This document shows, piece by piece, positions 4,929 to 33,183 of a stretch of DNA of 64,000 nucleotides. Under the pieces are notes generated by a model. The model saw nothing but the letters and a program-made list of their open reading frames with translations, did no database searches and was not told where the DNA came from. Origin of the DNA: an uncultured Bacteroidales bacterium. Lineage in GTDB: Bacteria; Bacteroidota; Bacteroidia; Bacteroidales; Muribaculaceae. Position 1 is the first letter of the stretch, and every line of letters starts with the position of its first letter. Location of the stretch: assembly GCA_902776435.1 (NCBI GenBank), contig CACYQB010000001.1, positions 1 through 64,000 on the forward strand, written 5' to 3'. The position numbers and the translations under genes were made by a program.

Positions 4929-4988
4929 CACTTAATGAATGCACAGAGCAGTCCGCATTTAGGGGACTGAGCATCGGCGCTATAAAAA

Positions 4989-5022
4989 GGGCCCGGCTGG
5001 AATGTGGAATCCAGTCGGGCCC
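4989..5022. terminator. bidirectional hairpin between convergent genes
   Basis: A 13-bp stem (4989-5001 with 5010-5022, one G-T pair, 8-nt loop) preceded by an A-run and followed by a short T-run. It sits between the C10 peptidase and the convergent fructokinase. Confidence 0.75.
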
Positions 5023-5047
5023 GTTTATTGGTTAGCAGGTATTTACT

Positions 5048-5938
5048 TTATTGGGCAGCGGCGAGGAGGTTGGGAGGCAAGGTGGGCATGGCGCCGTTCT
5101 GGGTGCAGACGTAGGCGCTGACCTTGACGGCCAACTCGTGGGCCTCGGGGACAGACTTGCCGTTGAGGATGGCGGCGCAGAAGGAACCAGTGAACGAGTC
5201 ACCGGCGCCGACGGTGTCGGCCACTTCAACCTTGGGGGTCTCCTGGAATGACATCTGGCCACGTGTGAAGACGTAGGAGCCGTTGGTGCCGCAGGTGAGC
5301 ACGAGCATGTCGAGGTCGTACTTGCCCAGGATCAACCAGCACTTGTTCTCGATGTCAAGACCGGGATAGCCGAACATGCGTCCGATGGTCACCAATTCCT
5401 CATCGTTGATCTTGAGGATGTTGCAACGGCGCATCGACTGCTGGATGATCTCCTTGTTATAGAACTGCTGACGCAGGTTGATGTCAAAGATCTTCATGCA
5501 GTCGTCGGGGGTGGCGTCGAGGAAACGGTGGATGTTCTCGCGCGACACGACGTTGCGCTGAGCCAGTGAGCCGTAGCACACGGCGCGGCAGTTGGCAGCG
5601 ATTTCCTCGATTTCGGGCGTGAAGGGGATGTTGTCCCATGCCACGTTTTCCTTGATGTCATAGGTGGGGATTCCCTCCTCGTTGAGCGTTACCTGTACGG
5701 TGCCGGTGGGATAGGGTACACGCGGCATGAGGTACTTGAGGCCATGCTCCTCGAGGGCTTCGATGGTCTCCTCGGCGAGCTTGTCCTCGCCCAGTGCACT
5801 GATGGCGATGGAGTTGTCACTGCCGACGAACTGTCCGGCATGATAGGCGAAGTTGGCAGGGGCACCACCCAGTTTCTTGCCTTCGGGGAGAACATCCCAC
5901 AGGGCCTCGCCCAGGCCCACTACATAACGTTTGTCCAT
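5048..5938 (-). CDS. PfkB-family fructokinase of the fructan locus
   Basis: 296 residues of the ribokinase/PfkB fold. The substrate-side motif GGAPANFAYHAG is at 24-36 and the signature DTVGAGDSFTG at 241-251, with Asp247 the expected catalytic base and the anion hole formed by GAG. It should phosphorylate fructose (probably to fructose-6-phosphate) with ATP in the cytoplasm. It is the last gene of the minus-strand fructan operon, 30 nt after the MFS importer, and corresponds in position to BT1757 of B. thetaiotaomicron. The leader just before its start contains degenerate ACTAAGG/ACTAAAA heptamers like those in front of the importer. Confidence 0.9.
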   Translation of the reverse strand: MDKRYVVGLGEALWDVLPEGKKLGGAPANFAYHAGQFVGSDNSIAISALGEDKLAEETIEALEEHGLKYLMPRVPYPTGTVQVTLNEEGIPTYDIKENVAWDNIPFTPEIEEIAANCRAVCYGSLAQRNVVSRENIHRFLDATPDDCMKIFDINLRQQFYNKEIIQQSMRRCNILKINDEELVTIGRMFGYPGLDIENKCWLILGKYDLDMLVLTCGTNGSYVFTRGQMSFQETPKVEVADTVGAGDSFTGSFCAAILNGKSVPEAHELAVKVSAYVCTQNGAMPTLPPNLLAAAQ

Positions 5939-5968: not shown

Positions 5969-7132
5969 TTAGTTTTGAGTCTTGAGTTGCTTGATGTAGG
6001 TGAACAGGTAGATGACACCGATGGCCATCACTGCTACAGCGCCTGCCTGGCCAACAGCGTCGCTGGCGAAGCCCATGAGCAGCGGGAAAATCGTGCCGCC
6101 GAACAGACCCATGATCATCAGGCCAGATACCTCGTTCTGCTTCTTGGGCATCGACTCAAGAGCGGTGGCAAAGCACATGGAGAATACGTTAGAGTTGCCG
6201 TAGCCCACGAGAGCGATAGCGGTGTACAGGATCCACTTCTCGGCGCCGAAGAACAAGCCGCACATCGACAGGGCCATCATGATGACACTGATGATGAAGA
6301 ACGTTCTCATCTTGAGTACGCGCAGGAAGAATGAGCCGGTCAAGCAACCGATGGTACGGAAGATGAAGTAGAGCGAGGTAGCAAATGCGGCCTCGTTCAA
6401 GGTCATGCCCAGACGCTCCATGAGAATCTTGGGAGCGGTGGTGTTGGTGCCCACATCGATGCCCACATGGCACATGATGCCCAGGAACGAGAGCAATACG
6501 ATGGGCTCACCGAGGAGCTTGAAGCACTCCACAAAGGTCGAAGGCTTGCCCTCGATTTTCTCCTCATGGATGGGAGTCACTCCTAGCAAGACAGTCGAGA
6601 AGAGACCTACTACAAAGTAGATGGCGAACAGGACACGCCAGTCAAGTCCCAGGCTGGGAATCACCTGTGTGGCACCCCACATGGCCAGATAAGGCGCGAG
6701 GAAGGAGGCGATGGCCTTGATGAACTGGCCGAAGGTGAGCGTCGAGGCCAGATTACCGCCGCCCATCACGGTGGATACCAGCGGGTTGAGCGAGGTCTGC
6801 ATCAGCGCATTGCCGATACCCAGCAGCGAGAAGGCGATAAGCATCACGGCAAAACTGTTGCCGAACAAAGGTATCATCAGCGAAAGGATGGTCACTGCCA
6901 ACGAGAGGAGCACCGTCTTCTTGCGGCCGATCTTGTTCATCAGCATGCCCGTGGGAACGCTGAAGATGAGGAACCAGAAGAACACCAGCGAGGGGAAGAT
7001 GTTAGCCACCGAGTCCGAGAGTTGGAGGTCTTCTTTCACATAGTTGGATGCGATACCCACCAGGTCCACGAAGCCCATGCAGAAGAAGCACAGCATGACC
7101 GAGATGATCGCGATTTTATTAGTTTTTGCCAT
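5969..7132 (-). CDS. MFS sugar importer (FucP-like) of the fructan locus
   Basis: 387 residues with about 12 hydrophobic segments. It has an MFS loop motif after the second helix (MLMNKIGRKKTV) and the FucP-type opening in which an N-terminal helix continues as FFCMGFVDLVGIASNYVKEDL. It should carry fructose across the inner membrane. It lies between a GH32 enzyme and the fructokinase, matching BT1758 in the B. thetaiotaomicron levan locus. The gap before it (89 nt) is the longest in the operon and holds a seven-unit heptamer array, described separately. Substrate is inferred from context. Confidence 0.88.
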   Translation of the reverse strand: MAKTNKIAIISVMLCFFCMGFVDLVGIASNYVKEDLQLSDSVANIFPSLVFFWFLIFSVPTGMLMNKIGRKKTVLLSLAVTILSLMIPLFGNSFAVMLIAFSLLGIGNALMQTSLNPLVSTVMGGGNLASTLTFGQFIKAIASFLAPYLAMWGATQVIPSLGLDWRVLFAIYFVVGLFSTVLLGVTPIHEEKIEGKPSTFVECFKLLGEPIVLLSFLGIMCHVGIDVGTNTTAPKILMERLGMTLNEAAFATSLYFIFRTIGCLTGSFFLRVLKMRTFFIISVIMMALSMCGLFFGAEKWILYTAIALVGYGNSNVFSMCFATALESMPKKQNEVSGLMIMGLFGGTIFPLLMGFASDAVGQAGAVAVMAIGVIYLFTYIKQLKTQN

Positions 7133-7145
7133 TTTGTTATGAGTT

Positions 7146-7194
7146 TTAGTCCTTAGTTTTTAGTCCTTAGTCCTTAGTCCTTAGTCCTTAGTCC
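7146..7194 (-). repeat. seven-unit heptamer array ahead of the sugar importer start
   Basis: Seven exact-phase 7-nt units on the plus strand: six TTAGTCC and one TTAGTTT. In the mRNA (minus strand) the unit reads GGACTAA, so a purine-rich AAGGA motif recurs every 7 nt immediately upstream of the importer start codon at 7132. Confidence 0.9.
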
Positions 7195-7221
7195 TTTGTT
7201 TGATTACTATCGTCTGAAAGA

Positions 7222-8883
7222 CTAATAGTTGATCTGATAGATCGTGGCCTTGCCGCCCTTGACCTTGATGTTGGTGTAAGGCGTGGTGGGGAACACGAGG
7301 TTGGTCATCGCCATCTTGCCGTCGGCATCAAAGGCCTCGATGCTGCAACGGTCAACGAAGATGCGCAGTTGCTTGATGGCACCGTGGGTGGGAGCGACGG
7401 TCACAACGGGGAAAGCCTCGCTGAAGGAGGCATCACCGCTGGCGGTGCGGTCCATGGCAAAGGTCTGCTTGGCCGCATCATAGGTCATCACCACCTGCTC
7501 GCCATTGGCGTTGGAGAGCGTCAACTCCATCGAGTTTTTCACATCCACAACGATTTCGCAGGTCTCGGTCGGCTTCTTCACCTTGGCACCGCGGGCTGCA
7601 AGCATTTCGGGTGAAGGCTTCACGCTGACGTAGGACTCCTCGCCATCGGTGAACAGGCCCAGGTCGCGGGGAATTGAGTTGGCGCTGCGGAACTGACGCG
7701 TGGGTACCTGGTTGGCATACTGCCAGTTGGACATCCAGGCTATTACCACATGGCGGCCAGCGGGTGCGTTATAGAACGATACCGTGGCATAGTGGTCCTT
7801 GCCGTAGTCCATCCACTTGGTGACCTTGGGCATCGACTCACAGGTGAACTTGTGGCCGTCAAAGTCGCCCACGAAGTACTGGGTTGCCGAGCCGCCGAAG
7901 GGGCCACCGGGATTGATGTTGCACAGCAGTACCCACTTGCCGTCGATTTTCATCAGGTCGGGGCACTCCCACACACCACCATGGTTGCCGTATTCCTTAC
8001 CGAAGGAACTCTCATACTTCCAGTTTTTCAGGTCTTTGGAACTATAGATGTTCATCTCCTGACCAGCAGCCAGAATCAGATTCCAGGCATTGATGTCGCT
8101 GTTCCAGAAGGGGTTCGGGTCACGGAAGTCGGGCACATCGCTCGTCAACACAGGGTTGCCCTCATACTTGTCGAACGTCATGCCGTTGTCGTGAGAAATG
8201 GCGATAGATTGCGTCTGGTTCTGTCCAGCCGAGGTGTAGATGGCTACCACGTCGTTGCCGTCGGTCACACAGGAGCCCGAGAAGATGGTTCCCAGGGCAT
8301 CAGGCTCGATGGCGATGGGCTGGTGGGTCCAGTGGATGAGGTCGGTCGATGTAGAGTGTCCCCACGTCATATTTTCCCACTGTGAGCCGTAGGGGTTGAA
8401 CTGGTAATAGAGGTGCCACACACCATCCTTGTAGAACATACCATTGGGGTCGTTCATCCAGCCATAGGCGGGAGTATGGTGGTAGGCGGGACGGAAACGC
8501 TCGCGATTAGCATCGTCGAACGTGTCGGTCACCCGCATCTCGCGCCAGCAGACAAAGTCCTTGACGGCGCCAGTGGTGCGGCGGTCGCCATGGAAGGAGA
8601 TATCGACCAGCACCTTCTTGTTGCCGAAGCGCTGGATATCCAGGGGCACATAGTAGTCCACCTTGTCAACAGCAAAGCGCACATTGAGCGTCTGTACTTG
8701 CTCGTTATTTACAATGACACGCACATAGGCGTTCTCCTCTTTCTCCTGCACTGGCAGTAACAAGTACTTGCCCGTAGCGTCAACCCGCAGCATGGCGTGG
8801 TTGTCGCTCAAAATCTGGGGGGCCAGTGCCGTGGCCGAGAAGGCCACGAGCACTGCCGCCATCAGAGTGAATAGTTTGTTCAT
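7222..8883 (-). CDS. GH32 beta-fructosidase (exo-levanase/inulinase type)
   Basis: 553 residues. Signal peptide 1-20 without a lipobox, so probably periplasmic. An N-terminal beta domain (about 25-115) of the kind found on Bacteroides GH32 enzymes precedes the five-bladed propeller. Catalytic motifs are intact: GWMNDPNG with nucleophile Asp145, FRDP with transition-state stabiliser Asp255, and WECPDL with acid/base Glu307. The C-terminal beta-sandwich follows (about 430-553). It should release fructose from fructo-oligosaccharides. It lies between the second GH32 gene and the importer, matching BT1759. Confidence 0.93.
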   Translation of the reverse strand: MNKLFTLMAAVLVAFSATALAPQILSDNHAMLRVDATGKYLLLPVQEKEENAYVRVIVNNEQVQTLNVRFAVDKVDYYVPLDIQRFGNKKVLVDISFHGDRRTTGAVKDFVCWREMRVTDTFDDANRERFRPAYHHTPAYGWMNDPNGMFYKDGVWHLYYQFNPYGSQWENMTWGHSTSTDLIHWTHQPIAIEPDALGTIFSGSCVTDGNDVVAIYTSAGQNQTQSIAISHDNGMTFDKYEGNPVLTSDVPDFRDPNPFWNSDINAWNLILAAGQEMNIYSSKDLKNWKYESSFGKEYGNHGGVWECPDLMKIDGKWVLLCNINPGGPFGGSATQYFVGDFDGHKFTCESMPKVTKWMDYGKDHYATVSFYNAPAGRHVVIAWMSNWQYANQVPTRQFRSANSIPRDLGLFTDGEESYVSVKPSPEMLAARGAKVKKPTETCEIVVDVKNSMELTLSNANGEQVVMTYDAAKQTFAMDRTASGDASFSEAFPVVTVAPTHGAIKQLRIFVDRCSIEAFDADGKMAMTNLVFPTTPYTNIKVKGGKATIYQINY

Positions 8884-8910
8884 GATCGTAAAGGTGTGGT
8901 TATTTACCGT

Positions 8911-10503
8911 TTACTGGAACACTTTCAGGTCCGAAATGGTGATCTTGCCACCATAATTGTTGATACTCCAGCAATTCTTCTGGATACCGTAGATGCGGTT
9001 GGTGTAAGCGCAAACGTCGTTGATGTACATCACCATGACCGAATTGTCGGTGTAGATGTTGATGTTATAGACGTTGTTCTCGGGGCGCACGAACCAATAG
9101 CCATCGATACCCTCGATAAAGCCCTTACCAGCGGTACCTTCCTGCTCGAAGTTCACCTTGCGGTGGTTTTCGTCCTCGGGGTTGACCATCATCGTGTAGT
9201 AACGATCGCTGTCGGAACCACGCACCAGCGAAATGCCGAAGCGGTCCCAATTGTTGGATGTGGTTACCTTGAACGAGATGTGGTTGCTGGTACCCAGGCG
9301 GTTGTACAGTACATAGGAATCATCGCCCGAGAGGGTGCCATTGACACCACTCATCTGGGCACCCTTGCTGGCCATCACCTTGACGTTCTGCTCCTTGTTG
9401 AACTTAGCAGAGATAGCAGGTACCTCGCCCAGGGTCAGCGTACCGTCGGCATGCTGGATAATCTTGTGGCATACCAGTGCGCCAGACCAGTTGGGCTCGC
9501 CACCGGCTCCCACATTGATATTCTTGTCATGGATGGTGTTACCCGTGCGGAAGGGGCACCAACCCCAGATGTAGCGGTCCTGGCCGTTGCTTGCCGTCTT
9601 GCCGGCATAGAAAGCGCGGGTGTCGAGAACGCCCTCATGACCGTCCTTGGGCCAGTTGGCACCGGGATCGTTGAAGCAGGCCTTCAGGGCCTCGAAGGTG
9701 GGCGCCATCATGTATTTCACCTTGCGGCTCCATGAAGCGCGGTAACCCTCACTGTACACGAAGTACCAGTAGTTGCCCATCTTGAAGATGTCGGGGCACT
9801 CACACATGCGGTCCCAAATCATGGGGAAGTTGCCAACGTGTTCCCACACCTTCAAGTCGCTGGACTTGAACTCAGCAAACTTCAGGTTGCTGGAGATGAC
9901 CATGTGATAGAGACCGTCGTCGGCAACAAAGATCTGCGGGTCGCGGAAGTCGTTGTCCGAGTAACCATAGGTCGAACCCTTCAACATCCACACGGCATCC
10001 TTAGACCAGTCCTTGAAGTCGGACGAGGTTGCCCTCATGACGGCTTCGCGGCCATAACGGTCATGTCCCGTGTAATAGATGTAGTATAAACCATCCTTTT
10101 CACTATAGATGCAGCAGCCAGTACCGAGTGCAGCATCTTGCTCATCGGGAGAAGTGCCAGTCGACAGAACCTCACCCATCGACTGATAGGTAGCGCCGTC
10201 AACGGTAGTCACGCCCCAGAAGGGGTGGTAGTTGAAGGTGGCATTGTTGTCAAACTCCTGCAGGTAGAGCACCTTGAAGTGGCCAGCCTTGGCATCATAG
10301 AAAGGCATGGGGTCACCACAACGGCCAATTGCGGGGTTGTAGTAGGTCTGGAAACCAGCCTCGTCCACCGAATTGAAGAATGTGGTTGTGCCGTCCCAGT
10401 CCTTAGCAGGATCGGGGCCGAAGCTATCCTCGCTGCAAGCCGACGAAGCGACCATAAAGCAACACAGCAGTAAAGCGCTGAAAATATTCTTATACTGTTT
10501 CAT
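8911..10503 (-). CDS. GH32-like surface lipoprotein, candidate endo-levanase (BT1760-like)
   Basis: 530 residues with a lipoprotein signal (VASSACSED, lipid Cys23). The propeller carries GH32-type acidic positions: Asp64 in RCGDPMPFYD replacing the usual NDPNG context, Asp188 in DFRDPQ, and Glu235 in MCECPDIF. A C-terminal beta-sandwich domain spans roughly 370-530. Position in the operon, directly after the DUF4960 lipoprotein, equals that of BT1760, which is known as a surface endo-levanase. Endo activity on levan is therefore inferred from synteny, not proved by the sequence. It is separated by 7 nt from the upstream lipoprotein gene, suggesting coupled translation. Confidence 0.85.
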   Translation of the reverse strand: MKQYKNIFSALLLCCFMVASSACSEDSFGPDPAKDWDGTTTFFNSVDEAGFQTYYNPAIGRCGDPMPFYDAKAGHFKVLYLQEFDNNATFNYHPFWGVTTVDGATYQSMGEVLSTGTSPDEQDAALGTGCCIYSEKDGLYYIYYTGHDRYGREAVMRATSSDFKDWSKDAVWMLKGSTYGYSDNDFRDPQIFVADDGLYHMVISSNLKFAEFKSSDLKVWEHVGNFPMIWDRMCECPDIFKMGNYWYFVYSEGYRASWSRKVKYMMAPTFEALKACFNDPGANWPKDGHEGVLDTRAFYAGKTASNGQDRYIWGWCPFRTGNTIHDKNINVGAGGEPNWSGALVCHKIIQHADGTLTLGEVPAISAKFNKEQNVKVMASKGAQMSGVNGTLSGDDSYVLYNRLGTSNHISFKVTTSNNWDRFGISLVRGSDSDRYYTMMVNPEDENHRKVNFEQEGTAGKGFIEGIDGYWFVRPENNVYNINIYTDNSVMVMYINDVCAYTNRIYGIQKNCWSINNYGGKITISDLKVFQ

Positions 10504-10510
10504 GAGTCAA

Positions 10511-11941
10511 TTACTTGGTTAAATAGTTGATAGCATTCTTGGTCATAATCTCAATGTTCTTGTGGAACTTCTCGGTATAACCTGCCTCGTAGGTGTAGGA
10601 ATACCAGTCGTAGCAGCCCGAACCAACGCAGATGATGCCACCCTTGCCGTCGTGAGCAGGATACTCCCAGAGCACGATAGCGCCGTCACCACCAACGCCG
10701 AGAACCCGGCCACCGGTGCGGCCTGTCCAGACGTCATAGTTGTCATAGCCACCCCAGTCGGTACCGATGTGGTACTGGGCGGTTGAGTTGGTGATGTGGT
10801 AACCGGCATCGGTGCAATAAACCTCGTTGGGGTTGTCACCGGCCACGAGACCTTGATAGATGGCATGGTCATTTTGGCCGTCGAAGATGCGGAAGGTCCA
10901 CGGGCCGCCGCACAGTTCGGCATAGGCCTCGTCCTGACCCCAGCAGTTGTTGGGCGTTGTCCACTCGTCGTCACCGGTAGTGCCGATGAATGACGGCAGG
11001 TTAACGGCATAGCGAGTGAGCAGCATTGCACCGCCGTTCTCGTAGAACTGGCGCAGCTCGTTCAGGGTGTTCATCGCGTCGGTAGCCTTAGCAACAAAGT
11101 TGTCATGGCCATCCACGCCACCGTCAACGTGCCAGTGCCACCAGATGAGCTTGCACTCCGACAGGTCGAGGGTGCCAGCGCGCAGGTCGGCAAACGAAGC
11201 ATACAGCGAGCTCTCAACATTGCCGAGCATCCACTGGCAAGCAGCCTGAGCCTCGGGATCCAGTTCACTCATCGTGGGAGCGGAACCCAGGAAGAGAGCC
11301 TTGGGCTTGCTGATGGCGATAACCTTAACGGTATAAACGCTCTCGGCGGAGTTGTTCTTCACCGTGTAGGTGACAGGCTGAGAGAAGTCTTGAGCCACAC
11401 CCGATGACGGGGTAATCGTTGCATTGGCACTATAAGTAATGGTCGGTACCAGGTTGGTGATGTCAAGCGTTGCGGGGATGTAAACCACAATCGTCTTGGC
11501 CTCCTGGTCGATGCTACCCGTGTAGATGTCGTTGATCACAAACGAGGTGATGCGAGCCTCATCGTGGAGTACAGACAAGGTCCAGTCCATAAAGACGTCA
11601 CCGTTCTTGACATGCAGCACCTTGGCAGCGTCCATGTTGATGGTTTCGCCCTCGCGAATGTTGCACACAGCACCATCCGACATTTTCAAAGCCGTAACCT
11701 TCATGGCCGATGTTTCATAGACCTCGGGCAAACGGACGAGGATGGAGCGTGAAGGCAGGTCGATGATACCCTCGAAGTTGTCAAGGGTGAGCTTATCAAT
11801 CATGCAGTTGCCTGACAACTTCAGGTCGCTGATGTTGTCATCGGAGCATGAGCTGAGCATCGAGGCGAGTCCGCAGCATGCAAGACACGCACAGAATATA
11901 TATAATATCTTAGCTTTCATAATCATTGTTATTTTATTCAT
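10511..11941 (-). CDS. DUF4960 surface glycan-binding lipoprotein (BT1761-like)
   Basis: 476 residues. The N-terminus is a lipoprotein signal ending at MLSSCSDDN (Cys32 from this start; an internal ATG at 11920 gives a more ordinary signal peptide and may be the true start). Two immunoglobulin-like modules (about 45-215, with the repeated pattern of a strand followed by SVYTVKVIA) lead into a C-terminal DUF4960 region (about 218-476) rich in Trp and Gly (IWWHWHVDGG, GGPWTFRIFDG, SGCYDWYSYTYEAGY), consistent with sugar binding. It occupies the position of BT1761, a levan-binding lipoprotein, between susD and the GH32 lipoprotein. Confidence 0.85.
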   Translation of the reverse strand: MNKITMIMKAKILYIFCACLACCGLASMLSSCSDDNISDLKLSGNCMIDKLTLDNFEGIIDLPSRSILVRLPEVYETSAMKVTALKMSDGAVCNIREGETINMDAAKVLHVKNGDVFMDWTLSVLHDEARITSFVINDIYTGSIDQEAKTIVVYIPATLDITNLVPTITYSANATITPSSGVAQDFSQPVTYTVKNNSAESVYTVKVIAISKPKALFLGSAPTMSELDPEAQAACQWMLGNVESSLYASFADLRAGTLDLSECKLIWWHWHVDGGVDGHDNFVAKATDAMNTLNELRQFYENGGAMLLTRYAVNLPSFIGTTGDDEWTTPNNCWGQDEAYAELCGGPWTFRIFDGQNDHAIYQGLVAGDNPNEVYCTDAGYHITNSTAQYHIGTDWGGYDNYDVWTGRTGGRVLGVGGDGAIVLWEYPAHDGKGGIICVGSGCYDWYSYTYEAGYTEKFHKNIEIMTKNAINYLTK

Positions 11942-11965
11942 CGGAAATTAACTATGTTGCTGTGA

Positions 11966-13705
11966 TTACCAGTTGCCAATGTTCTGCGTGTAATGGCCGT
12001 TGGAGGCCGAAATCTGGCTGAACGGGATGGGCAGATACTCATCCTTGTTGGCGGTGAAATGGGCAGCGCTGTAAATGGCACAGCTGCTGATTTCCTCGGA
12101 GAAGTACTTGTTGAGCACCGTGGCGGCATCACCCCAGCGCACGAGGTCGAAGAAACGCTCGCTCTCCATACCCATTTCCAAACGGCGTTCCATCTTCACA
12201 ATCTTCACAGCCTGGTCTTTGGAATAGCTGCCGCGATAGTTGCTGATGTACATCTTCACACCATAGGAGTTGGGATAGCTGGAAATCATCTGAGTGCTGG
12301 TGGCAGCACGTGAGCGCAGCTGGTTCACGAGAGTGATGGCCTGGTCAGTCTGGCCCAGCTGGGCATAGGCCTCGGCACGCATCAGCAGCACGTCAGCATA
12401 GCGGAAGACGATGCGGTTCATCGAGCTGGCCCAGTAAGAACCCTTAATGAGGTAACTGCCGATGAGAGCAGGGTCAACATTGTGCTTGAGGGACACGTAG
12501 TAGCCGTACAGACCGTTGCTGCGGCTCCAGATGCTGGTCTCCTCCATCATGTAGTTGCGGTTGAACATGTAGGGCAGTCCCGGCATACCTACGGTGAGGA
12601 ACAGGCGCGGGTCAGCATTGTCGGTGCTCAAGTCGAAGTCTTTCTCGTTGAAGTTGTCGAGCAGGGGCAGACCATCGGCACCGGTGTGGTAAGCATTCAC
12701 CAGGTTCTGTGAGGGCTTGTAGAAGTCACAACCGCCATCGGTAGCGCCAGGGATGTTGGGCGGAATCAGGCCGTAGCTCCAGTTCAGGTTACCATAGGTG
12801 GAACCGTCGTTGCGGGAGTACTGAATGGCCCAGATGCTCTCGATACCGTTTTCGTACTGCTCCTCAGGACGGAAGTTGTTGTGGATATCGTCCTCCAGAC
12901 CGTAGTTGGCATACAGAGCGGGATTGGTGAACTCGATGACCTTCTCCAGGTCGCCCTGATTGATGCTCGTTACCTGGTTGCTCTTGGCATCATCCTGACG
13001 ATAAGCCTTGTAGAGATAAACCTTAGCCAGGAAAGCGGCAGCGGCGGCCTTGGTGGGACGTCCCTTGTCCTGTTGAACTACGGGCAGGGTGTTGTAGGCT
13101 TCCATCAGGTCGTTGATGATGAGCTGCCAGCCCTCGTCGTTGGAGTACTGCGTGTTAGACAACTCGTTGTACTCGTCGTAGGTCAAATTCTCGTTGATGA
13201 CAAAGGGGATGTTCTTGTACAGGCGCTTGAGCAGGAAGTGGCCGTAGGCACGCAAGAACTTCATCTCGGCCAGGCGCTGTCCCTTCATGGCGTAACTGTC
13301 ATCGGTCTCATTGAGCAGAGCGATGGCACTGTTCACACGCGACAGGCTGTTGTACAACCTTACCCACATGTCATTAATGTTCCAGTTGGTGGTGAGCACA
13401 CCCTGCTGAATCTCCAGCTGATGGAAGACGTCACCGTCGCTGGTACCGTTACCACCCTTGTAGGCGTCATCACTACGGACGTCGAAGTTCCACATCGAGA
13501 ATGATGAATTGATGTCTTCGGCCGAGGTGAAGATAGCGTAGGCCGAGATGGCCATAGCCTCGGCATTCTCGGGCGACTTTACCTGTTCGTCGCTGAGTGT
13601 GGCCTGGGGCTTGTGCTCGTCAAGAAAATCATTACAAGACGTGAACAATGTGGTGGCACTGCAGCAAACCAGCCCGACACACAATATATTAAATATCTTT
13701 TTCAT
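11966..13705 (-). CDS. susD: SusD-family fructan-binding lipoprotein
   Basis: 579 residues from the ATG at 13705; a longer frame opens at 13798 but its first 31 codons overlap the end of susC and precede a clean lipoprotein signal (MKKIFNILCVGLVCCSATTLFTSC, here in two pieces: start to CCSATT, then LFTSC with lipid Cys24). The TPR-rich SusD fold is visible (AEMKFLRAYGHFLLKRLYKNIPFV; DVLLMRAEAYAQLGQTDQAI; MERRLEMGMESERFFDLVRW). It caps the SusC barrel and captures fructan at the surface. Sixteen nucleotides separate it from susC. Equivalent to BT1762. Confidence 0.95.
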   Translation of the reverse strand: MKKIFNILCVGLVCCSATTLFTSCNDFLDEHKPQATLSDEQVKSPENAEAMAISAYAIFTSAEDINSSFSMWNFDVRSDDAYKGGNGTSDGDVFHQLEIQQGVLTTNWNINDMWVRLYNSLSRVNSAIALLNETDDSYAMKGQRLAEMKFLRAYGHFLLKRLYKNIPFVINENLTYDEYNELSNTQYSNDEGWQLIINDLMEAYNTLPVVQQDKGRPTKAAAAAFLAKVYLYKAYRQDDAKSNQVTSINQGDLEKVIEFTNPALYANYGLEDDIHNNFRPEEQYENGIESIWAIQYSRNDGSTYGNLNWSYGLIPPNIPGATDGGCDFYKPSQNLVNAYHTGADGLPLLDNFNEKDFDLSTDNADPRLFLTVGMPGLPYMFNRNYMMEETSIWSRSNGLYGYYVSLKHNVDPALIGSYLIKGSYWASSMNRIVFRYADVLLMRAEAYAQLGQTDQAITLVNQLRSRAATSTQMISSYPNSYGVKMYISNYRGSYSKDQAVKIVKMERRLEMGMESERFFDLVRWGDAATVLNKYFSEEISSCAIYSAAHFTANKDEYLPIPFSQISASNGHYTQNIGNW

Positions 13706-13721
13706 AGTGAATCCTGAATTT

Positions 13722-16700
13722 TTAGAATGAAACATTAAGACCATAGGTGACATTGAGGGGGATAGGATAGCCGAAGTTGGGATTCTCGGGATCCACACCG
13801 GTAAATGACTTGCTCTTGATGGTCAGCAGATTCTGGGCTGATACATACATGCGCAGGCGGGCGATGTGCAACTTGTCACACACCTTGCTGCCGAAGTTGT
13901 AACCCAGCTGAATGTTACGCATCTTGGCGAAGGAACCATTCTCCACGAAGTAGCTGCTCACGCGCTTCTCGTTGTTGTTGTCCATCGTGCTGACAGCGGG
14001 GATGTTGGAGCTGGGATTAACGGGGCTCCAAGCGTCGAGCAAGCGACGGCCCTTATTCAGGTTGGTGATATTCAGACCAGCCCACAGGTCGGTCTCGCGC
14101 TTCAGGTCGCTGATGACGTCAACGCCCTGTACGCCTTGCCAGAACATGGTGAAGTCCAGGTTCTTGTATTCAAGATAGATGTTCAGACCCCAAGTGAAGT
14201 CGGGCACGGGAGAGTAGATCCACTTCTGGTCCTTCTCGTTGATGATGCCATCCTCGTTCAGGTCTTTCCAGCGGATGCGACCCAGGCCGGCACCATTCTG
14301 TGTGGCGTGGTTGTCAATCTCGTCCTGGCTCTTGAAGATGCCGTCATACACATAGCCCACCTGGGCGCCCATGGGATGACCGACAACGCTCTCAACGCCG
14401 TTACCGCCGAAGGTGCCAGCAGCTGCCAGCGTCTCGGGGAGCTTGGTCACCTTGTTGCGGTAGGTGCCGATGTTGCCAGAGATGTCATACTGGAAATCGC
14501 CCACGCTGCCGCGGTAGCCCACGTTCAGCTCGATACCCTTATTGGTCATCTCACCTGCATTGATCCACTGGCTACTGCCCTCACCCATCACACCGATGCC
14601 GGGCATGTAAACCAGAATGTCGGTGGTCTTCTTGTAGTACCACTCAAACGAACCGTACAGTGCGTTGCGCAGCATACCGAAGTCAAAACCGACGTTGGTC
14701 TGTGTCGTGGTTTCCCACTTGAGGTTATCGTTACCCAACTGGTTGCGCTTGAAACCGCTGGGGAGCGTCTGGCCACCGTTAGTACCGGCAATGTCATAGC
14801 TGGTACCGTAGCTCTGGCCACCGAATCCAGCCTCACCATAGTTGCTCTCAAAGATGGTGTAGCGTGCAATGTTGGAAATCTCCTGGTTACCGGTCTGTCC
14901 CCATGATGCGCGCAGCTTGAGGTTGTCGAGCCACTCCATGCGCTTCATGAAGGGTTCCTCGCTGATGCGCCAACCGAGGCTGACCGAGGGGAATGTACCA
15001 TAGCGGTTATTGCGACCGAAACGGCTTGAACCATCGTAGCGGACGGTCAAACTAGCCAGATAACGGTCAGCATAGGTATAATTCATCTTGCCGAAGAAGG
15101 ACACCAGCGTGTAGCCCTCGCCAGAGCCGTAGGCTTCTGCCTCGCCGACTGCCGCATTGGGCCACATGTAGTCGGGATTCAGCACTGCAAAGTCATAGGC
15201 CTTGCCGCTGAGCCATGAGTCGTCCTCGCGGTTCAACTCGGTACCGACCATGATATCACCGCGATGTGCGCCGCGCTCCAGGTTGTAGGTAGCGATGGCG
15301 TTCCACATCCACTTGGTCCAGTGCTCCTGCTTAGCCTCAACGGCATTGGTAGAATTGGCCACGGTACCTTCGGTGATGGGATAGGTGAAGATGCGCTGTT
15401 GTTTCTGTGAGTAGTCAAGACCAAAGGTTGACTTGATGTTGAAATCGGCAATGGGGTTGATGTTGATGAAAGCATCACCGAACATGCGCCAGTAGGTGTA
15501 GCGGTTGTCGCTGTTGCGGTCCAGACGTGCCACGGGGTTCTCACGGTCGGGATAACCGCCAACGGGACCAGCATACTTGCCGTCCGTCGTGTAAACGGGC
15601 AGTGAGGGGTTGAACTGCAGCACGTTCTCGAGGAAGCCGCCAGGAGCCTGAAGCTCGTTGGTGCGGTTTACAGTGAAGTGCTCACCCACGGTCACAATCT
15701 TGCGGTCACCGACGTTCAACAACTTGTAGGTTGAGTTCATACGGGCCGAAAGACGTTGGAAGTCAGACTTCTTGATAATACCGTCGTTCTTGTAGTAGCC
15801 GAGTGAGAAGAAGGAGGTACCATTCTCAGTACCCTGGCTCAGCGAGACGTTATACTGCTGAACCAAACCTGTACGGGTGGTCTCCTTGAACCAGTCGGTG
15901 TCGGCGGCGGGAGTCTTGCCGGCAGGATCCAGATACTTGCTCATGGTGATGCTGTTGAGCATGGGCACGCCCTGAGCATTGTAACTCCAGTCATAGTTAT
16001 ATCCCAGACCGTTCAGGTTGGGATTCAGGCCGTCATTCACATAACCTTGCCACATCACTTGGCCAAACTCCTTAGCGTTCAGCACTTTCATCTTGTGGGC
16101 GTAGGTCTGTACAGACAGGCTGGCATCGAAGTCGATCTTCACTTTACCGTCCTTGCCGCCCTTGGTGGTGATGATGATGACACCGTTGGCAGCGCGGCTA
16201 CCGTAGATAGACGCCGAGGCGGCATCCTTGAGCACCTGGATGCTCTCGATGTCGTTGCCGTTGAGCTCGTGCATACCGGCCTTGGTGGGAACACCGTCGA
16301 TGATGTAGAGCGGGTCATTGTTGTTGAGGGTACCTGTACCACGGATGCGGACAGTGGCTGCACCCGAGGGGTTACCGTCGGCCGAGATGTTCATGCCCGG
16401 CACGCGACCCTGCATCGCCTTGATGGGGTTGTTCTCGTTCTGTTTTACCAGATCGGTCACGCTGACTACACTCACGGCACCGGTCAAGTCGGCCTTGCGC
16501 TGTGTGGTATAACCAGTCACGACAATCTCGTTGAGGGCAAGTGCATCCTCTTTCATGGTGATGACCATGCCATCAGCGGCAGGCATCTCAACGTTGAGGT
16601 AGCCCACATAGGAGAAAACGAGTGTTGCTCCGGGATTTACCTTGATGACGAAGTTACCGTCAAAGTCGGTCACTGTACCGTTAGTGGTACCTTTCTCTAT

Positions 16701-16829
16701 CACAGTGGCGCCGATGACGGTTTCTCCTGTCTCGTCAACGACGGTGCCTGTGATTTCTGTTTGCGCATACAGAATCGTACACGTCAACATGAGCATGAAG
16801 CTGAGTAGAAATCTTTTCAGTACGTTCAT
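13722..16829 (-). CDS. susC: SusC-family TonB-dependent fructan transporter
   Basis: 1035 residues. Signal peptide 1-22 (ends LYAQ), carboxypeptidase-like regulatory domain (about 24-105, ITGTVVDETGETVIGATV), SusC signature and plug (about 110-230, including LNEIVVTGYTTQRKADLTG, PLYIIDGVP and DAASASIYGSRAANGVIII), then a 22-strand barrel ending in an aromatic residue (VTYGLNVSF). First gene of the fructan operon; the minus-strand box TAACTTTG (16902-16909) about 75 nt upstream is a likely promoter -7 element. Equivalent to BT1763. It has no extra N-terminal STN domain, so it is not an anti-sigma signalling type. Confidence 0.95.
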   Translation of the reverse strand: MNVLKRFLLSFMLMLTCTILYAQTEITGTVVDETGETVIGATVIEKGTTNGTVTDFDGNFVIKVNPGATLVFSYVGYLNVEMPAADGMVITMKEDALALNEIVVTGYTTQRKADLTGAVSVVSVTDLVKQNENNPIKAMQGRVPGMNISADGNPSGAATVRIRGTGTLNNNDPLYIIDGVPTKAGMHELNGNDIESIQVLKDAASASIYGSRAANGVIIITTKGGKDGKVKIDFDASLSVQTYAHKMKVLNAKEFGQVMWQGYVNDGLNPNLNGLGYNYDWSYNAQGVPMLNSITMSKYLDPAGKTPAADTDWFKETTRTGLVQQYNVSLSQGTENGTSFFSLGYYKNDGIIKKSDFQRLSARMNSTYKLLNVGDRKIVTVGEHFTVNRTNELQAPGGFLENVLQFNPSLPVYTTDGKYAGPVGGYPDRENPVARLDRNSDNRYTYWRMFGDAFININPIADFNIKSTFGLDYSQKQQRIFTYPITEGTVANSTNAVEAKQEHWTKWMWNAIATYNLERGAHRGDIMVGTELNREDDSWLSGKAYDFAVLNPDYMWPNAAVGEAEAYGSGEGYTLVSFFGKMNYTYADRYLASLTVRYDGSSRFGRNNRYGTFPSVSLGWRISEEPFMKRMEWLDNLKLRASWGQTGNQEISNIARYTIFESNYGEAGFGGQSYGTSYDIAGTNGGQTLPSGFKRNQLGNDNLKWETTTQTNVGFDFGMLRNALYGSFEWYYKKTTDILVYMPGIGVMGEGSSQWINAGEMTNKGIELNVGYRGSVGDFQYDISGNIGTYRNKVTKLPETLAAAGTFGGNGVESVVGHPMGAQVGYVYDGIFKSQDEIDNHATQNGAGLGRIRWKDLNEDGIINEKDQKWIYSPVPDFTWGLNIYLEYKNLDFTMFWQGVQGVDVISDLKRETDLWAGLNITNLNKGRRLLDAWSPVNPSSNIPAVSTMDNNNEKRVSSYFVENGSFAKMRNIQLGYNFGSKVCDKLHIARLRMYVSAQNLLTIKSKSFTGVDPENPNFGYPIPLNVTYGLNVSF

Positions 16830-16901
16830 TGTTCTGTTGGTTTTGGTTAATATAATGGGTTAGTTTATGCCAATAGTTGGTTCGGTTTATGCTATTTGTT
16901 G

Positions 16902-16909
16902 CAAAGTTA
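16902..16909 (-). promoter_or_regulatory. candidate -7 box of the fructan operon promoter
   Basis: TAACTTTG on the minus strand fits TAnnTTTG. No clear TTTG was seen at the expected spacing, which would fit a promoter that needs the HTCS activator. Confidence 0.4.
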
Positions 16910-17148
16910 ACTTATTGAAATATGAGGAACTATCAGATTTCGTTCAACCGCTTGTAAATATGTTTCAATGTATCAATTCTGCTAGTCGATGAACGATTTT
17001 TACAAGTGTCGTATGGGGTGATGCGGTTTTACGGTGGATAAAAAAACAGCATCAGTTAGCGTCTTTTATTATGAAAGATGTGTCTTACGGGGCAGAAAGG
17101 GTATTCATATTGCGATTCTGTTAATAAAGGTTAAAGATTGGACTAAAA

Positions 17149-17259
17149 TTTGGTTTATAATATAAACCGCTTTATATTTGCAGCGTGAAATGAGAACGGT
17201 AATCGCGAGTGCTGTTCTTTTTTCGGAGAGTTTTAGTTTATTTTTTAAACCGCTTTATA
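17149..17259 (+). promoter_or_regulatory. promoter with overlapping palindrome and 13-nt direct repeat
   Basis: TTTG (17149-17152) and TATATTTG (17173-17180), spaced 20 nt, form a good promoter. A perfect palindrome with 8-nt arms around a central A (17152-17168, GGTTTATAATATAAACC) fills the spacer, and AAACCGCTTTATA occurs twice (17164-17176 and 17247-17259). This is a natural operator candidate for the winged-helix protein encoded second in the operon. Confidence 0.55.
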
Positions 17260-17283
17260 GCCAAATCAAAAACAATTCAAGTT

Positions 17284-17907
17284 ATGGAAGAGAAGAAAAT
17301 GACCGAGAAAGAGAGTCTCGAATTGATTACCGCGATGATTCAGCGCACGCGTGAGCGCTATGTGGGTGACGGCAACATTTTGCTGATGTGGGGTTACCTC
17401 ACGGTGATTGTGACCGCACTGGTGTGGATCATGCTTATCACGACGCACAACCCGGCATGGAACTGGCTGTGGTTTGCGATTGGAATCGTTGGTGGAATTG
17501 CCACTCCCATCATGTCTAAGAAGAGCGACCTTAAGAACGGGGTCAAGAGTTACTCCGACAAAATCACGTCTCAAATTTGGACCACTGTAGGTTTGGCATC
17601 AGTGGTAGCAACACTGTTCTGCTTCGGGTTTGCCCTCAAGGGCTTTAACCCCTGGGGAATGATGTTTGTTATCCCGCTCATCATCGTACCGATGGCCGAA
17701 ATCGCCCAGGGCATCATTGTGAAAGAAAAATCGCTCATCGCGGGCGGTGCCATCGGCCTGTGCGTTGGACTATTCACGTTTTGCTGCATTGTTAGTAACG
17801 CACGCCTCCTCATCAACTGGTTCCTGCCGTTGTTTATGTTTGCCTTTGGCTGCATGATGATCATCCCAGGCCACATCATTAACCGTAAAGCCAAGATGCA
17901 GCGATGA
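17284..17907 (+). CDS. six-helix membrane protein of unknown function
   Basis: 207 residues from the ATG at 17284 (MEEKKMTEKESLELITAMI); a longer frame from 17209 adds 25 residues that run through the leader and one copy of the 13-nt repeat, so it is not preferred. After an amphipathic N-terminus come about six membrane helices (ILLMWGYLTVIVTALVWIML; WLWFAIGIVGGIATPI; VGLASVVATLFCFGFAL; MMFVIPLIIVPMAEI; LIAGGAIGLCVGLFTF; LFMFAFGCMMIIPG). No transport or enzyme motif was recognised. Its stop overlaps the start of the winged-helix gene (ATGA), so the two are translated together; membrane protein plus small DNA-binding protein is a recurring Bacteroidales pair. Confidence 0.8.
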   Translation: MEEKKMTEKESLELITAMIQRTRERYVGDGNILLMWGYLTVIVTALVWIMLITTHNPAWNWLWFAIGIVGGIATPIMSKKSDLKNGVKSYSDKITSQIWTTVGLASVVATLFCFGFALKGFNPWGMMFVIPLIIVPMAEIAQGIIVKEKSLIAGGAIGLCVGLFTFCCIVSNARLLINWFLPLFMFAFGCMMIIPGHIINRKAKMQR

Positions 17908-18185
17908 AAGAGTTGGATCCCATCCTTCACTCCCAACTGCGGTTGGCGGTGATGTCCATCCTGATGAACGTGGACGAGGCCGACTTTGTCTACCTCAAGG
18001 AACAGACCGAGTCCACAGCAGGTAACCTGAGCGTGCAGCTCGACAAACTGTCCAATGCCGGTTACATCACCGTCACCAAGGGCTTTGTCGGCAAGAAGAC
18101 GCGCACCACCTGTCAGGTCACCGAGCAAGGCCGCAAAGCCTTCGAGGAATATGTCGAGGCCTTGAAAGCTTATCTGAACCTCTGA
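17904..18185 (+). CDS. winged-helix transcriptional regulator
   Basis: 93 residues, nearly all a single winged-helix DNA-binding domain: HSQLRLAVMSILM (helix 1), STAGNLSVQLDKLSNAGYI (recognition region) and a wing ITVTKGFVGKKTRTTCQVTE, ending with ARG-type dimerisation helix RKAFEEYVEALKAYL. This is the small MarR/PadR-like type (PF13601 style). It overlaps the preceding membrane protein gene by 4 nt. It probably represses its own operon through the palindrome in the promoter at 17149-17180; that target is inferred from position only. Confidence 0.88.
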   Translation: MKELDPILHSQLRLAVMSILMNVDEADFVYLKEQTESTAGNLSVQLDKLSNAGYITVTKGFVGKKTRTTCQVTEQGRKAFEEYVEALKAYLNL

Positions 18186-18189
18186 TTAA

Positions 18190-18383
18190 GTGAGTTCGAT
18201 GAAATTTTTATTGATATGCAGTGCGTTAGCTACTCCCCCTCTAAGATTAGAGGGGGTGCCCGAAGGGCAGGGGAGTTGATGATATTTTGACAGTGTCTGC
18301 TTTCAGCGGTATCGACGCCCCCCAGCCCCCTCTTATCCAAGAGGGGGAGCTGAGTATCAGCAGTTTAATTTCATCGAACTCAC
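18190..18383. mobile_element. 194-bp MITE-like element, copy A
   Basis: Perfect 17-bp terminal inverted repeats (GTGAGTTCGATGAAATT at 18190-18206 and its complement at 18367-18383) bound a non-coding interior. Inside are two strong GC hairpins (18235-18256 and 18326-18347, arms CCCCCTCT...AGAGGGGG) and a small one, TGCCCGAAGGGCA. Copies B (32990-33183, reversed, also 194 bp) and C (51234-51433) share the interior. Confidence 0.9.
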
Positions 18384-18473: not shown

Positions 18474-20672
18474 TCAGGACTTGCGTGCCTCGCCTGGCAC
18501 GGTGCCGAACTCGTCTTTGTAACACTTGGTGAAGTAGGAGGGCGAGGCAAAGCCCACCTGATAGGCAATCTCGCTGACTGATAGCGTTGACTCTTGCAGG
18601 AGTTTTTGGGCTTGGGCCAGCCTTGCCTTGCGCAACAGATCCACTGGCGTATTGCCTGTCAGGGCCTTGACTTTGCGGTAAAGTTGCACACGGCTCAGTC
18701 CCATGTCGGCCGCGAGGTCCTCAATGCTCAGGTTGTTGTCCGACAGGCGCTCCTCAACCATGTTCTTAAATCGGGAAATAAAGGCGTCCTCGATGGGCGT
18801 TGTGGCGACTGCAGTGCCCTGGGGTGGCGTGACTGATGCTTCTGTAACAGGCTTCATGCCCCACAGGTCTTTGAGCTGATGGCGGCTTTGCAGCAGGTTG
18901 TCGATGCGGGCCAGCAGTAATTCCGGGGAGAAGGGTTTGGTGATATAGGCGTCGGCTCCGCTTTCGTAACCCTCAATCTGTTGTTTTTCCAGGGCTCTGG
19001 CCGTGAGCAGAATAACGGGGATATGGCTGGAAATAACGTCCTTTTTTACCTGTTGGCAGAACTCCAGTCCATTCATCACCGGCATCATCACGTCCGAGAC
19101 AATGAGGTCGGGCACTTGTTCGCGGGCGAGTTCGAGTCCGCGCTTACCATCTTCGGCTTCCAGCAGGCGGTATTGCCCTTGCAGGATGGACCGCAGATAG
19201 GTGCGGATGTCAGCATTGTCATCGACGATGAGTACCGTGGGAGCGTCCTCGTCCTGTTCGGGTTCCACGGCGGGGGCAGCAATGGGTTGTGACACGGTGA
19301 TGGCATCCACCTGTGCGCTTGTCATCTCTTGGATGGGAGTCCCCACTTGGGCATCCAGCATCTTGTTGATGAGGCTTGTGAGGTGCTGAGTATTGCGGCG
19401 AACGATGCTAAAGAGTTCGCGTGCATTATCGGTCGCATCTCTGAAGTCATTGGTCCTTAGCAACTGGTCCAGTGGACCTTGAATGAGCGTTAGCGGTGTT
19501 CGCAATTCGTGGCTCACCTGGGTGTAGAAGTCCAGTTGTTCGCGTTCCATCAGCATGCGTTCGTCCTGGATGCGGGCACGCTGCAGGTAATACATGTAGA
19601 TGCCGGCAAGCAACGCCAGCAACAGCAGTATCGCGGCCAGAGCCACAAAGATGAGCGTGCGCTGGTTGCCCAGTTGATCGAGATATTGGCTGGCTTTTTC
19701 ATGCAACTGCTCGAGGTTGCTCGACTGGCGCATGATTTCCTCGCTTTCCATCAGCAGCACGCGGGCGTTGTCCTGAGTGACAAGTGCCGACATCAGATTC
19801 GTCTCCTTCTCATAGGGCTTCCCCTCAAGGATGTCCACCGCCAGTTGCAGCAACTGGTCGCCGTGGGTGGGGTAGATATAGGACGCATCCAGCAGCGAGT
19901 CCTGCACCAGACGGATGCCGCCATTCTCACCCGGCAGGCCATCGATGCCGCAGAACAGCGGCAGGATCCCGCCCGCTTCCTCAAATGCCTTGCGCGCACC
20001 CATTGCTGTGCGGTCGTTCATGCCGAACACCAGGTCGATCTTCTCCCCCTTGTTTTTGTCAAGCCATTGCTTCACTGTGTTGTAGGCCGTCGGTTCGGTC
20101 CAGTCGCCTTGCAAGGTCGCAACTACCTGGATGCCTGGATGCTGGGCAATGGCCTCCCTGAAGCCATTGTGGCGCTCAATGGCGGGTGAAGAACCTTTCA
20201 GTCCCATCACCTCGATGATTTTGCCACGTTCATTCAGCCGAGTGGCGACATACTCGCCCATCAGGTGCCCCATCTCATAGTTGTCGGCACCCATATAGGC
20301 CGTGTATTTCTTGGTGTTGGTCTTGCGTTCAAACACAATCACCGGGATGCCCTTGTCATAGGCCCTGTCGATGGCCGGGGAAATGGTCGATACCTGGTTG
20401 GGAGCCACAATCAGCAGGTCAATTCCAGTGCTTACGAGGCTGTCAATCTGTTGGATTTGGCGCTCATCGCTATCATATGCCGCGGCGAACCTTAGCTCCA
20501 CATTGTCATGGAAATAGGCGCCGATCTGTAATTCCGAGTTCTGCTTGTCGCGCCAGATGTCATCGGAGCACTGCGACACTCCGATGCGGTATTTCTTAGC
20601 ATCCTGCGAGCATGAGGCCAACAGGCCAAGTATCATTAGTGTTATAAAAGCAAATTGATAGTATTTTCGCAT
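18474..20672 (-). CDS. hybrid two-component regulator lacking the ATPase domain
   Basis: 732 residues. N-terminal signal/anchor with LLASC (1-21); periplasmic sugar-binding domain of the LacI/RbsB type (about 28-315, IGVSQCSDDIWR, DLLIVAPNQVSTISPAID, GIPVIVFERKT); membrane helix (about 339-362); HisKA helix pair with H-box QVSHELRTPLTLIQGP (His388); receiver domain (about 479-595, DD at 484-485, phospho-acceptor Asp527 in SDVMMPVMNG, Lys579); AraC helix-turn-helix (about 645-732). Between the H-box helices (to about 440) and the receiver there is only a 38-residue linker, so the N, G1, F and G2 boxes of a HATPase_c domain are absent. It sits beside the fructan locus, as BT1754 does, and probably senses fructose. 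Confidence 0.9.
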   Translation of the reverse strand: MRKYYQFAFITLMILGLLASCSQDAKKYRIGVSQCSDDIWRDKQNSELQIGAYFHDNVELRFAAAYDSDERQIQQIDSLVSTGIDLLIVAPNQVSTISPAIDRAYDKGIPVIVFERKTNTKKYTAYMGADNYEMGHLMGEYVATRLNERGKIIEVMGLKGSSPAIERHNGFREAIAQHPGIQVVATLQGDWTEPTAYNTVKQWLDKNKGEKIDLVFGMNDRTAMGARKAFEEAGGILPLFCGIDGLPGENGGIRLVQDSLLDASYIYPTHGDQLLQLAVDILEGKPYEKETNLMSALVTQDNARVLLMESEEIMRQSSNLEQLHEKASQYLDQLGNQRTLIFVALAAILLLLALLAGIYMYYLQRARIQDERMLMEREQLDFYTQVSHELRTPLTLIQGPLDQLLRTNDFRDATDNARELFSIVRRNTQHLTSLINKMLDAQVGTPIQEMTSAQVDAITVSQPIAAPAVEPEQDEDAPTVLIVDDNADIRTYLRSILQGQYRLLEAEDGKRGLELAREQVPDLIVSDVMMPVMNGLEFCQQVKKDVISSHIPVILLTARALEKQQIEGYESGADAYITKPFSPELLLARIDNLLQSRHQLKDLWGMKPVTEASVTPPQGTAVATTPIEDAFISRFKNMVEERLSDNNLSIEDLAADMGLSRVQLYRKVKALTGNTPVDLLRKARLAQAQKLLQESTLSVSEIAYQVGFASPSYFTKCYKDEFGTVPGEARKS

Positions 20673-32989: not shown

Positions 32990-33183
32990 GTGAACTCGAT
33001 GAAAATAAACTGCTGATACTCAGCTCCCCCTCTTGGATAAGAGGGGGCCGGGGGCGTCAATGCCACCTAAGTCATACACCAACGCGGTAACATCAACGCC
33101 CCTGCCCTTCGGGCACCCCCTCTAATCTTAGAGGGGGAGATGCTAACGCGCTGATTCTTAGTGAACAATTTCATCGAACTCAC
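32990..33183. mobile_element. 194-bp MITE-like element, copy B (reverse orientation)
   Basis: Same length as copy A and the same interior read in reverse. The terminal repeats are GTGAACTCGATGAAAAT at the left and the complement of GTGAGTTCGATGAAATT at the right (33167-33183); similarity continues outward to ATAAC...GTTAT. The two GGGGG/CCCCC hairpins are conserved. Confidence 0.88.

Follow-up and report, generated by a model that had tools for sequence, protein, structure and literature searches.

The gene at positions 18474–20672 of the window (the whole 64,000-nucleotide stretch analysed here) encodes a fructan-locus regulator of 732 aa in one unbroken frame on the minus strand, stop codon included. 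The protein is clearly derived from the hybrid two-component system (HTCS) family, its ancestor being a BT1754-like hybrid two-component protein whose ATP-binding (CA) domain has been lost. Our leading but tentative reading, which we hold at somewhat less than an even chance, is that it is a phosphorylation-dependent regulator of the fructan locus whose phosphate comes from outside, and in which HisKA was most likely kept as a ligand-gated phosphatase.

The domain content was determined by a Pfam scan (E ≤ 0.1), which matched Peripla_BP_4 (residues 57–285), HisKA (380–440), Response_reg (480–590) and HTH_18 (653–731) and found no HATPase_c anywhere in the 732-aa frame. All features lie on the minus strand. 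The sequence begins with an N-terminal signal containing the lipobox LASC (residues 1–21; 20610–20672), followed by the periplasmic sugar-binding sensor (25–330; 19683–20600), a transmembrane segment at about residues 340–361 (19590–19655), recognised as a hydrophobic stretch and as a helix in the predicted model, and the HisKA (DHp) domain (19353–19535), which scored 45.4 bits against a cut-off of 26.9 and carries the phospho-acceptor His388 (19509–19511). A linker (441–479; 19236–19352) occupies the position of the ATPase in relatives, and the stretch 19241–19355 corresponds to residues 440–478. Downstream of it are the receiver (19235 to 18903; 95.5 bits) with its phosphorylation site Asp527 (19092–19094) and the sequence SHIP (549–552; 19017–19028), the receiver half of a published receiver/DNA-binding inhibitory motif, and the AraC-type DNA-binding domain (18480–18716). 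The initial annotation of this DNA had described a missing ATPase domain in a continuous frame with intact sensor, His388, Asp527 and AraC output, and every part of this description was confirmed. It had also stated that the protein cannot phosphorylate itself from ATP, which would follow from the missing domain.

An AlphaFold2 model computed with 40 sequences (mean pLDDT 77.7, pTM 0.46) placed the transmembrane segment and HisKA in long helices (311–405 and 415–442). The receiver and the AraC domain were better predicted than the low-confidence linker, in which residues 444–473 fell below pLDDT 50. The best PDB match to the sensor was 2x7x (E 1.5e-81), the structure of the related fructose-binding domain of BT1754, and residues 476–730 matched the solved hybrid two-component protein 12aw. 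The matches listed by a fold search covered mainly the sensor (residues 25–317) and do not bear on the other domains. Cys21 of the lipobox-like LASC was present in 91 of the 94 ATPase-less proteins compared below and in 64 of 65 intact relatives, while the lipobox pattern was matched in 75 of 94 and 37 of 65, respectively. Since this motif precedes the sensor and its Cys is conserved, the periplasmic sensor may be lipid-anchored besides its transmembrane tether.

The protein has the HTCS features of a periplasmic sensor with transmembrane segment (the latter judged from the sequence), HisKA with a phospho-acceptor His, and receiver Asp with AraC output, and lacks the HATPase_c domain. With the HTCS_Fru/BT1754 group it shares a COG1879-type, BT1754-related sensor and a position beside fructan-use genes; the putative fructose-binding residues 167, 191, 219 and 244 were kept in all 94 ATPase-less proteins. 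It also belongs to the "HisKA, no HATPase" class, having a sensor and a HisKA with conserved His and no recognisable HATPase. ToxR/CadC-like one-component membrane regulators consist of a sensor and a DNA-binding domain without phosphotransfer domains, and the presence of HisKA and receiver separates the window protein from them.

The neighbouring genes on the same strand encode a SusC-like receptor (13722–16829, assigned by Pfam and locus comparison) and, assigned by Pfam, a SusD-like protein (11966–13798), a BT1760-like GH32 (8911–10503), a second GH32 (7222–8883), an MFS transporter (5969–7132) and a fructokinase-like PfkB sugar kinase (5048–5938). The assignment to a fructan locus was thus correct, two GH32, SusC/D and PfkB all lying in the window. 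Within 99 compared loci, we found a SusC relative in 70, SusD in 65, endo-type GH32 in 24, exo-type GH32 in 22 and a sugar kinase in 11; many flanks of these loci stop at contig ends, and the set contains places taken twice and four loci that are not ATPase-less (L045–L048).

To describe the distribution, samples of increasing breadth were searched. Within the genus, E ≤ 1e-60 was reached by 42 of 101 genomes (the own genome of the window among them) and missed by the other 59. The ATPase-less architecture was present in 37 of the 42, in a single uninterrupted frame in 34; the broken copies carried one stop codon each (G099, G089) or were in two pieces (G060). The other five matches were two full-length proteins with a degenerate ATPase (G087, G021), a shorter form more reduced than the ATPase-less architecture (G003), an intact protein (G040) and a contig-end fragment (G085). 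The single-contig genome G004 contained a more distant ATPase-less copy with 43% identity. The family sample yielded matches in 219 of 397 genomes, and among the family matches listed none outside the genus spanned the junction in one piece, the frames being mostly 905–994 aa. Intact relatives of about this size are 1.24–1.36 times as long as the window protein, close to the factor of 1.3 first annotated for canonical HTCSs, and some of those listed are shorter because of contig ends or otherwise. The order sample gave matches at E ≤ 1e-90 in 8 of its 393 genomes, again counting the own genome: G735 had two ATPase-less copies, G523 a reduced form and G622 a distant ATPase-less copy, and the other four were intact in length.

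In a collection of named genomes, the best 80 of 585 confirmed loci all spanned the junction and had the ATPase-less architecture, a count which is not a frequency because the score ranking favours this form. These 80 were labelled Prevotella, Prevotellaceae, Muribaculaceae, Bacteroidales and, once, Bacteroides, and several of the isolate names referred to goat, sheep, yak, water buffalo, dairy cattle, red deer or roe deer. The ATPase-less regulator is widespread among gut bacteria, a good number of them ruminant-derived. An assembly deletion or frameshift was ruled out, since the same architecture occurs in 37 of 101 genus genomes and in the best 80 of 585 loci. The initial annotation had suggested such a search of related genomes and had treated the case as a single gene; its observation was right, but its scope was too narrow, as the form is shared across a large clade and the ATPase has been lost outside that clade as well.

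For the study of its origin, L014 and L095 (internal stop), L053 (partial) and the repeats L049–L051 and L054–L062 were left out, and the remaining 147 proteins were brought down to 124 by collapsing those whose last 500 residues are identical. The 124 aligned proteins comprised 94 ATPase-less ones keeping HisKA and receiver, three without HisKA, ATPase and receiver, which were counted apart, two with a degenerate ATPase and 25 intact ones; L251, L252 and L238 stand outside the 94. The 25, with 40 regions chosen from the family matches listed, formed an intact set of 65, of which L188 is cut by a contig end. In 56 of these 65, regular expressions recovered all three ATPase boxes (nine miss one or two patterns); none of the 94 ATPase-less relatives matched a G1 or G2 pattern. 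In the tree built without trait columns, all but one ATPase-less protein fell into one clade (SH-aLRT 100), which also held the degenerate and reduced forms. L176, the exception, was placed among intact proteins on a very long branch. In this tree and in a smaller first one, the two degenerate-ATPase proteins branched among ATPase-less ones on long branches, and both trees were quick ones with a risk of long-branch joins; the evidence fits separate ATPase losses as well as a decay that preceded the loss. The degenerate proteins keep an ATPase-sized stretch that scored 17.5 and 20.3 bits, below the cut-off of 26.4 (the intact L048 reached 98.6 bits), and their G1 and G2 boxes were unrecognisable by eye. 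Decay of the ATPase before its deletion is therefore plausible but not proven.

Three proteins retained the sensor and the AraC domain only, as judged by Pfam: L047 (568 aa frame), L175 (554 aa) and the second regulator of L156 (534 aa), at three tree positions. In the 97 ATPase-less proteins counted, HisKA and receiver were kept together in 94 and lost together in three, which suggests that they leave together and supports a functional pair in the 94. A phosphorylation-free version of the regulator may exist among the reduced forms. At L156, the ATPase-less regulator (7980–10160) is followed about 1.4 kb on by this second-type paralogue (11518–13119). At L161, the second-type paralogue (15748–17987) lies in two overlapping frames, with the H-box missing and the receiver in another frame; it is a pseudogene or an assembly fault and was not counted. 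ATPase loss outside the main clade or in other HTCSs was found in L176, L251 (which carries one stop codon), L252 and the propeller-type L238. The last (1990–5811), found in one genome, is a 1274-aa HTCS without HATPase_c and with Lys at H+1; its relatives in 9 other genomes of 61 (E ≤ 1e-120) have frames of 1429–1494 aa, and the two inspected have an N-box. L238 is apparently an independent ATPase loss.

To estimate selection, the window gene was compared with 30 genus relatives, of which 22–30 were usable per domain after saturated or unchanged comparisons had been dropped. The median dN/dS was 0.042 for the sensor, 0.072 for HisKA, 0.052 for the receiver, 0.058 for the AraC domain and 0.236 for the linker, which is the fastest-evolving part. 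Moreover, His388, Arg391, Thr392, Pro393, Asp484, Asp485, Asp527 and Lys579 were invariant in all 94 ATPase-less proteins. The mean relative site rate of the H-box was 0.11 in these proteins compared to 0.19 in the 25 intact relatives, and His388 was among the slowest 3% of sites.

The acidic residue at H+1 was lost in 12 of the 94 ATPase-less proteins (11 Q, 1 S), by seven changes on the tree, and in none of the 65 intact relatives (Fisher value 0.0016, which ignores relatedness), while the Thr at H+4 (Thr392) was kept in 94 of 94. The other 82, the window protein among them, retain the acid (80 E, 2 D), and elsewhere H+1 is S in L251 and Q in L252. In the extracts of Willett and Kirby (PMC3510030), the H+1 acid is needed for the kinase and not for the phosphatase activity of CrdS and three other HisKA proteins, and the H+4 Thr/Asn is needed for the phosphatase. 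Drift at H+1 with a fixed H+4 would be the trace expected of a HisKA freed from the kinase step and not from the phosphatase step. However, an HTCS of the own genome (C5; genome G000, loci L007 and L086; TPR-type, 973 aa frame) has Arg at H+1 despite an HATPase_c of 85.4 bits, the other 14 of the 15 distinct CA-containing HTCSs compared (19 rows) being acidic there. The H+1 residue is therefore not an absolute marker, and its use as a clean kinase marker is weakened.

According to the extracts of Gao and colleagues (PMC11253607), the receiver of HTCSs prevents the AraC domain from binding DNA by means of an S/CHIP-D-K contact, which is relieved by phosphorylation. The receiver half of this motif was strict S/C-H-I-P in 86 of the 94 ATPase-less proteins, the other eight having V as their third residue (94 of 94 if V is allowed), and the lysine was kept in 94 of 94. 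Since the receiver half is kept, phosphorylation should still matter. At position 628, which we take as the equivalent of D1344 of BT4124 on the basis of the 39-residue spacing to K1383/K667, the ATPase-less proteins have D in 14, E in 68 and other residues in 12 of 94, compared to D in 55 and E in 9 of 64 intact relatives (Fisher value for D 8e-20, again ignoring relatedness). If this mapping is right, the inhibitory lock was retuned and not abandoned. Disruption of the lock is described as speeding phosphorylation by a small donor (PMC11253607, extract), so a looser lock would suit an outside source of phosphate.

Such a source can be sought in the own genome, which is 95.36% complete. Genes for Pta and AckA are adjacent on C3, so acetyl phosphate is expected, and BT1754 was among the HTCS receivers tested in vitro with the small donor phosphoramidate (PMC11253607, extract). 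There were 11 HATPase_c matches, six of which look like signalling kinases: C10 (521 aa) and C21 (490 aa), which have neighbouring regulators, C26 (427 aa), C6 (298 aa) and the two TPR-type HTCSs C5 and C16 (947 aa). The five others resemble what we take to be GyrB, ParE, MutL, HtpG and a SpoIIE-type protein. An intact fructose-type paralogue that could serve as a heterodimer partner was absent from this genome. The flanks of loci L011–L062 and L094–L181, which are short and in many cases stop at contig ends, were also searched for an ATPase with a home-made profile. Apart from seven full-length regulators (L045, L046, L048, L177–L180), it matched six frames in five loci (L133, L142 with two, L158, L160, L167), representing kinases of several types. 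An ATPase encoded beside the gene as a rule was thus rejected. At L133, a receiver-less kinase (6094–7785; SBP_bac_3, HisKA, HATPase_c) shares the strand of the regulator and stops 15 bases short of its frame, and at L167 a 388-aa kinase, resembling the C26 kinase of the own genome, adjoins the regulator on the other strand. These two are leads for a trans kinase and not a constant companion.

In the mechanism that we tentatively favour, we infer the identity of the sugar, the phosphate source, the phosphatase activity and the sign of regulation. The CA-less protein would no longer make phosphate and would gate it instead. Asp527 would be charged externally, most simply by acetyl phosphate or another kinase, and the HisKA pair (His388, Thr392) would serve as a phosphatase or phosphate sink for the receiver within its own dimer, with an activity that depends on whether the periplasmic domain has bound sugar. 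In the absence of sugar, HisKA would keep the receiver unphosphorylated, and the receiver would hold the AraC domain off DNA; with sugar, a rearrangement of the transmembrane segment and HisKA would halt dephosphorylation, phosphate would build up on Asp527, and the fructan genes would be turned on. The isolated DHp of EnvZ or NtrB suffices for phosphatase activity, but the CA domain greatly raises this activity in both (PMC3510030, extract), which speaks against a CA-less phosphatase. Likewise, the invariance of His388 exceeds the strict need of a phosphatase, given that phospho-His is only modestly needed in CrdS, although PleC needs it (PMC3510030, extract). The retention of the H+1 acid in 82 of 94 proteins, the Arg of C5, the three sister proteins that manage without HisKA and receiver, and the altered DNA-binding half of the inhibitory contact (non-acidic at 628 in 12 of 94) also weigh against the phosphatase.

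Phosphorylation in trans, or a phosphorelay, is a somewhat unlikely alternative, in which the ATPase of another kinase, or another receiver, would charge His388, which would hand the phosphate on to Asp527 in the dimer, while the sugar controls access. Use as a phosphate carrier best explains why His388 never varies; the own genome has the further kinases C10, C21, C26, C6, C5 and C16, kinase genes adjoin the regulator in L133 and L167, and a relaxed kinase-receiver specificity of HTCSs is mentioned in the extracts of PMC11253607. However, 12 of 94 lack the H+1 acid that phosphorylation from ATP requires, the own genome has no intact fructose-type partner, and the kinase-like frames in the flanks, short as these are, occur in five loci only and differ in type. 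The initial proposal of phosphorylation in trans is thus kept, but a phosphatase role of HisKA, the receiver obtaining its phosphate by a different route, is at least as likely because the kinase-specific H+1 acid drifts. We consider it unlikely that signalling is independent of phosphorylation, the sugar shifting the dimer geometry through the transmembrane segment and HisKA bundle to the AraC domain while HisKA and receiver form a scaffold. A scaffold needs none of His388, Asp484, Asp485, Asp527 and Lys579, yet all are invariant, and HisKA and receiver were never lost singly in the counted set (the broken L161 copy is uncounted). Ligand-driven dimerisation alone, as first suggested, is disfavoured by these residues, but it gains from the three sister forms reduced to sensor and AraC, from the relaxation at position 628, likely the DNA-binding-domain anchor of the inhibitory contact, and from BT4236, with Q at the His site, which is proposed to be phosphorylation-independent (PMC11253607, extract). 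A decaying or inactive regulator is highly improbable. Two of 37 genus copies have a stop codon and one is split, and 59 of 101 genus genomes gave no match at the threshold; however, the low dN/dS of all folded domains means that the gene is not decaying, and it is widely distributed, often beside fructan genes. The suggestion of an inactive regulator is contradicted by this strong purifying selection.

In Bacteroides, HTCSs are described as a major regulator class for polysaccharide use (PMC11253607, extract). They are said to unite every domain of a two-component pair, the kinase domain included (PMC3404733, extract), and one genome survey reports a histidine-kinase domain in all the HTCSs that it identified (PMC3878776, extract). 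Going by such descriptions, the window protein differs from BT1754 (HTCS_Fru) of Bacteroides thetaiotaomicron in having a 39-residue linker in place of the kinase domain. BT4236 is likewise an HTCS unable to use canonical autophosphorylation, but it has lost the His (Q) and has a deviant inhibitory motif, CSIP-EK, whereas the window protein keeps the His and the receiver motif and has lost the ATPase (PMC11253607, extract). L047, L175 and the second copy of L156 have the same sensor family and AraC domain and additionally lack HisKA and receiver. The archaeal "HisKA, no HATPase" proteins are alike in having a sensor and a HisKA with conserved His and no ATPase, but in the extracts of PMC5847659 they are without the periplasmic sugar sensor and AraC output. 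Some of these archaeal regulators combine receiver, PAS/GAF and HisKA without ATPase, and phosphatase, phospho-acceptor or phosphotransfer roles were suggested by the authors (PMC5847659, extract). A search of open-licence PMC papers, which is not proof, found no description of an ATPase-less HTCS. HisKA without ATPase is thus already known from archaea, and nothing listed by that search described the HTCS variant, how it is conserved or how H+1 contrasts with H+4.

The 94 proteins are natural CA deletions maintained by purifying selection; together with their intact, degenerate-ATPase and further reduced relatives, they make it directly testable whether HTCSs are controlled by autophosphorylation, by phosphatase action or by ligand-driven geometry only. 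A broader idea, possible but doubtful, is that HTCSs were repeatedly converted from sensor kinases to sensor phosphatases, with the fructan genes on only when fructose is present together with phosphate from an independent source, for example acetyl phosphate. If so, the regulator would be an AND gate between substrate and metabolic state, and the ATPase loss in L176, L251, L252 and L238 would be the same conversion, the H+1 acid being lost afterwards. Such proteins may also be misnamed: annotation from HisKA and receiver would yield "kinase", and a rule requiring HATPase_c would skip them.

Further elements were observed around the gene. Between SusC and the regulator, positions 17209–18185 encode a protein without Pfam match and an HTH_34 winged-helix protein, an arrangement present in 2 of 99 loci (L062, L101). 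A C10 peptidase with Spi inhibitor and dockerin domain (3261–4928) adjoins the fructan locus. Directly downstream of the regulator lies a palindromic, MITE-like element of about 190 bp (18190–18380) with a single-strand fold z-score of -8.8, for which 52 matching stretches were listed in the own genome, including 32996–33183 and 51273–51424 of the window.
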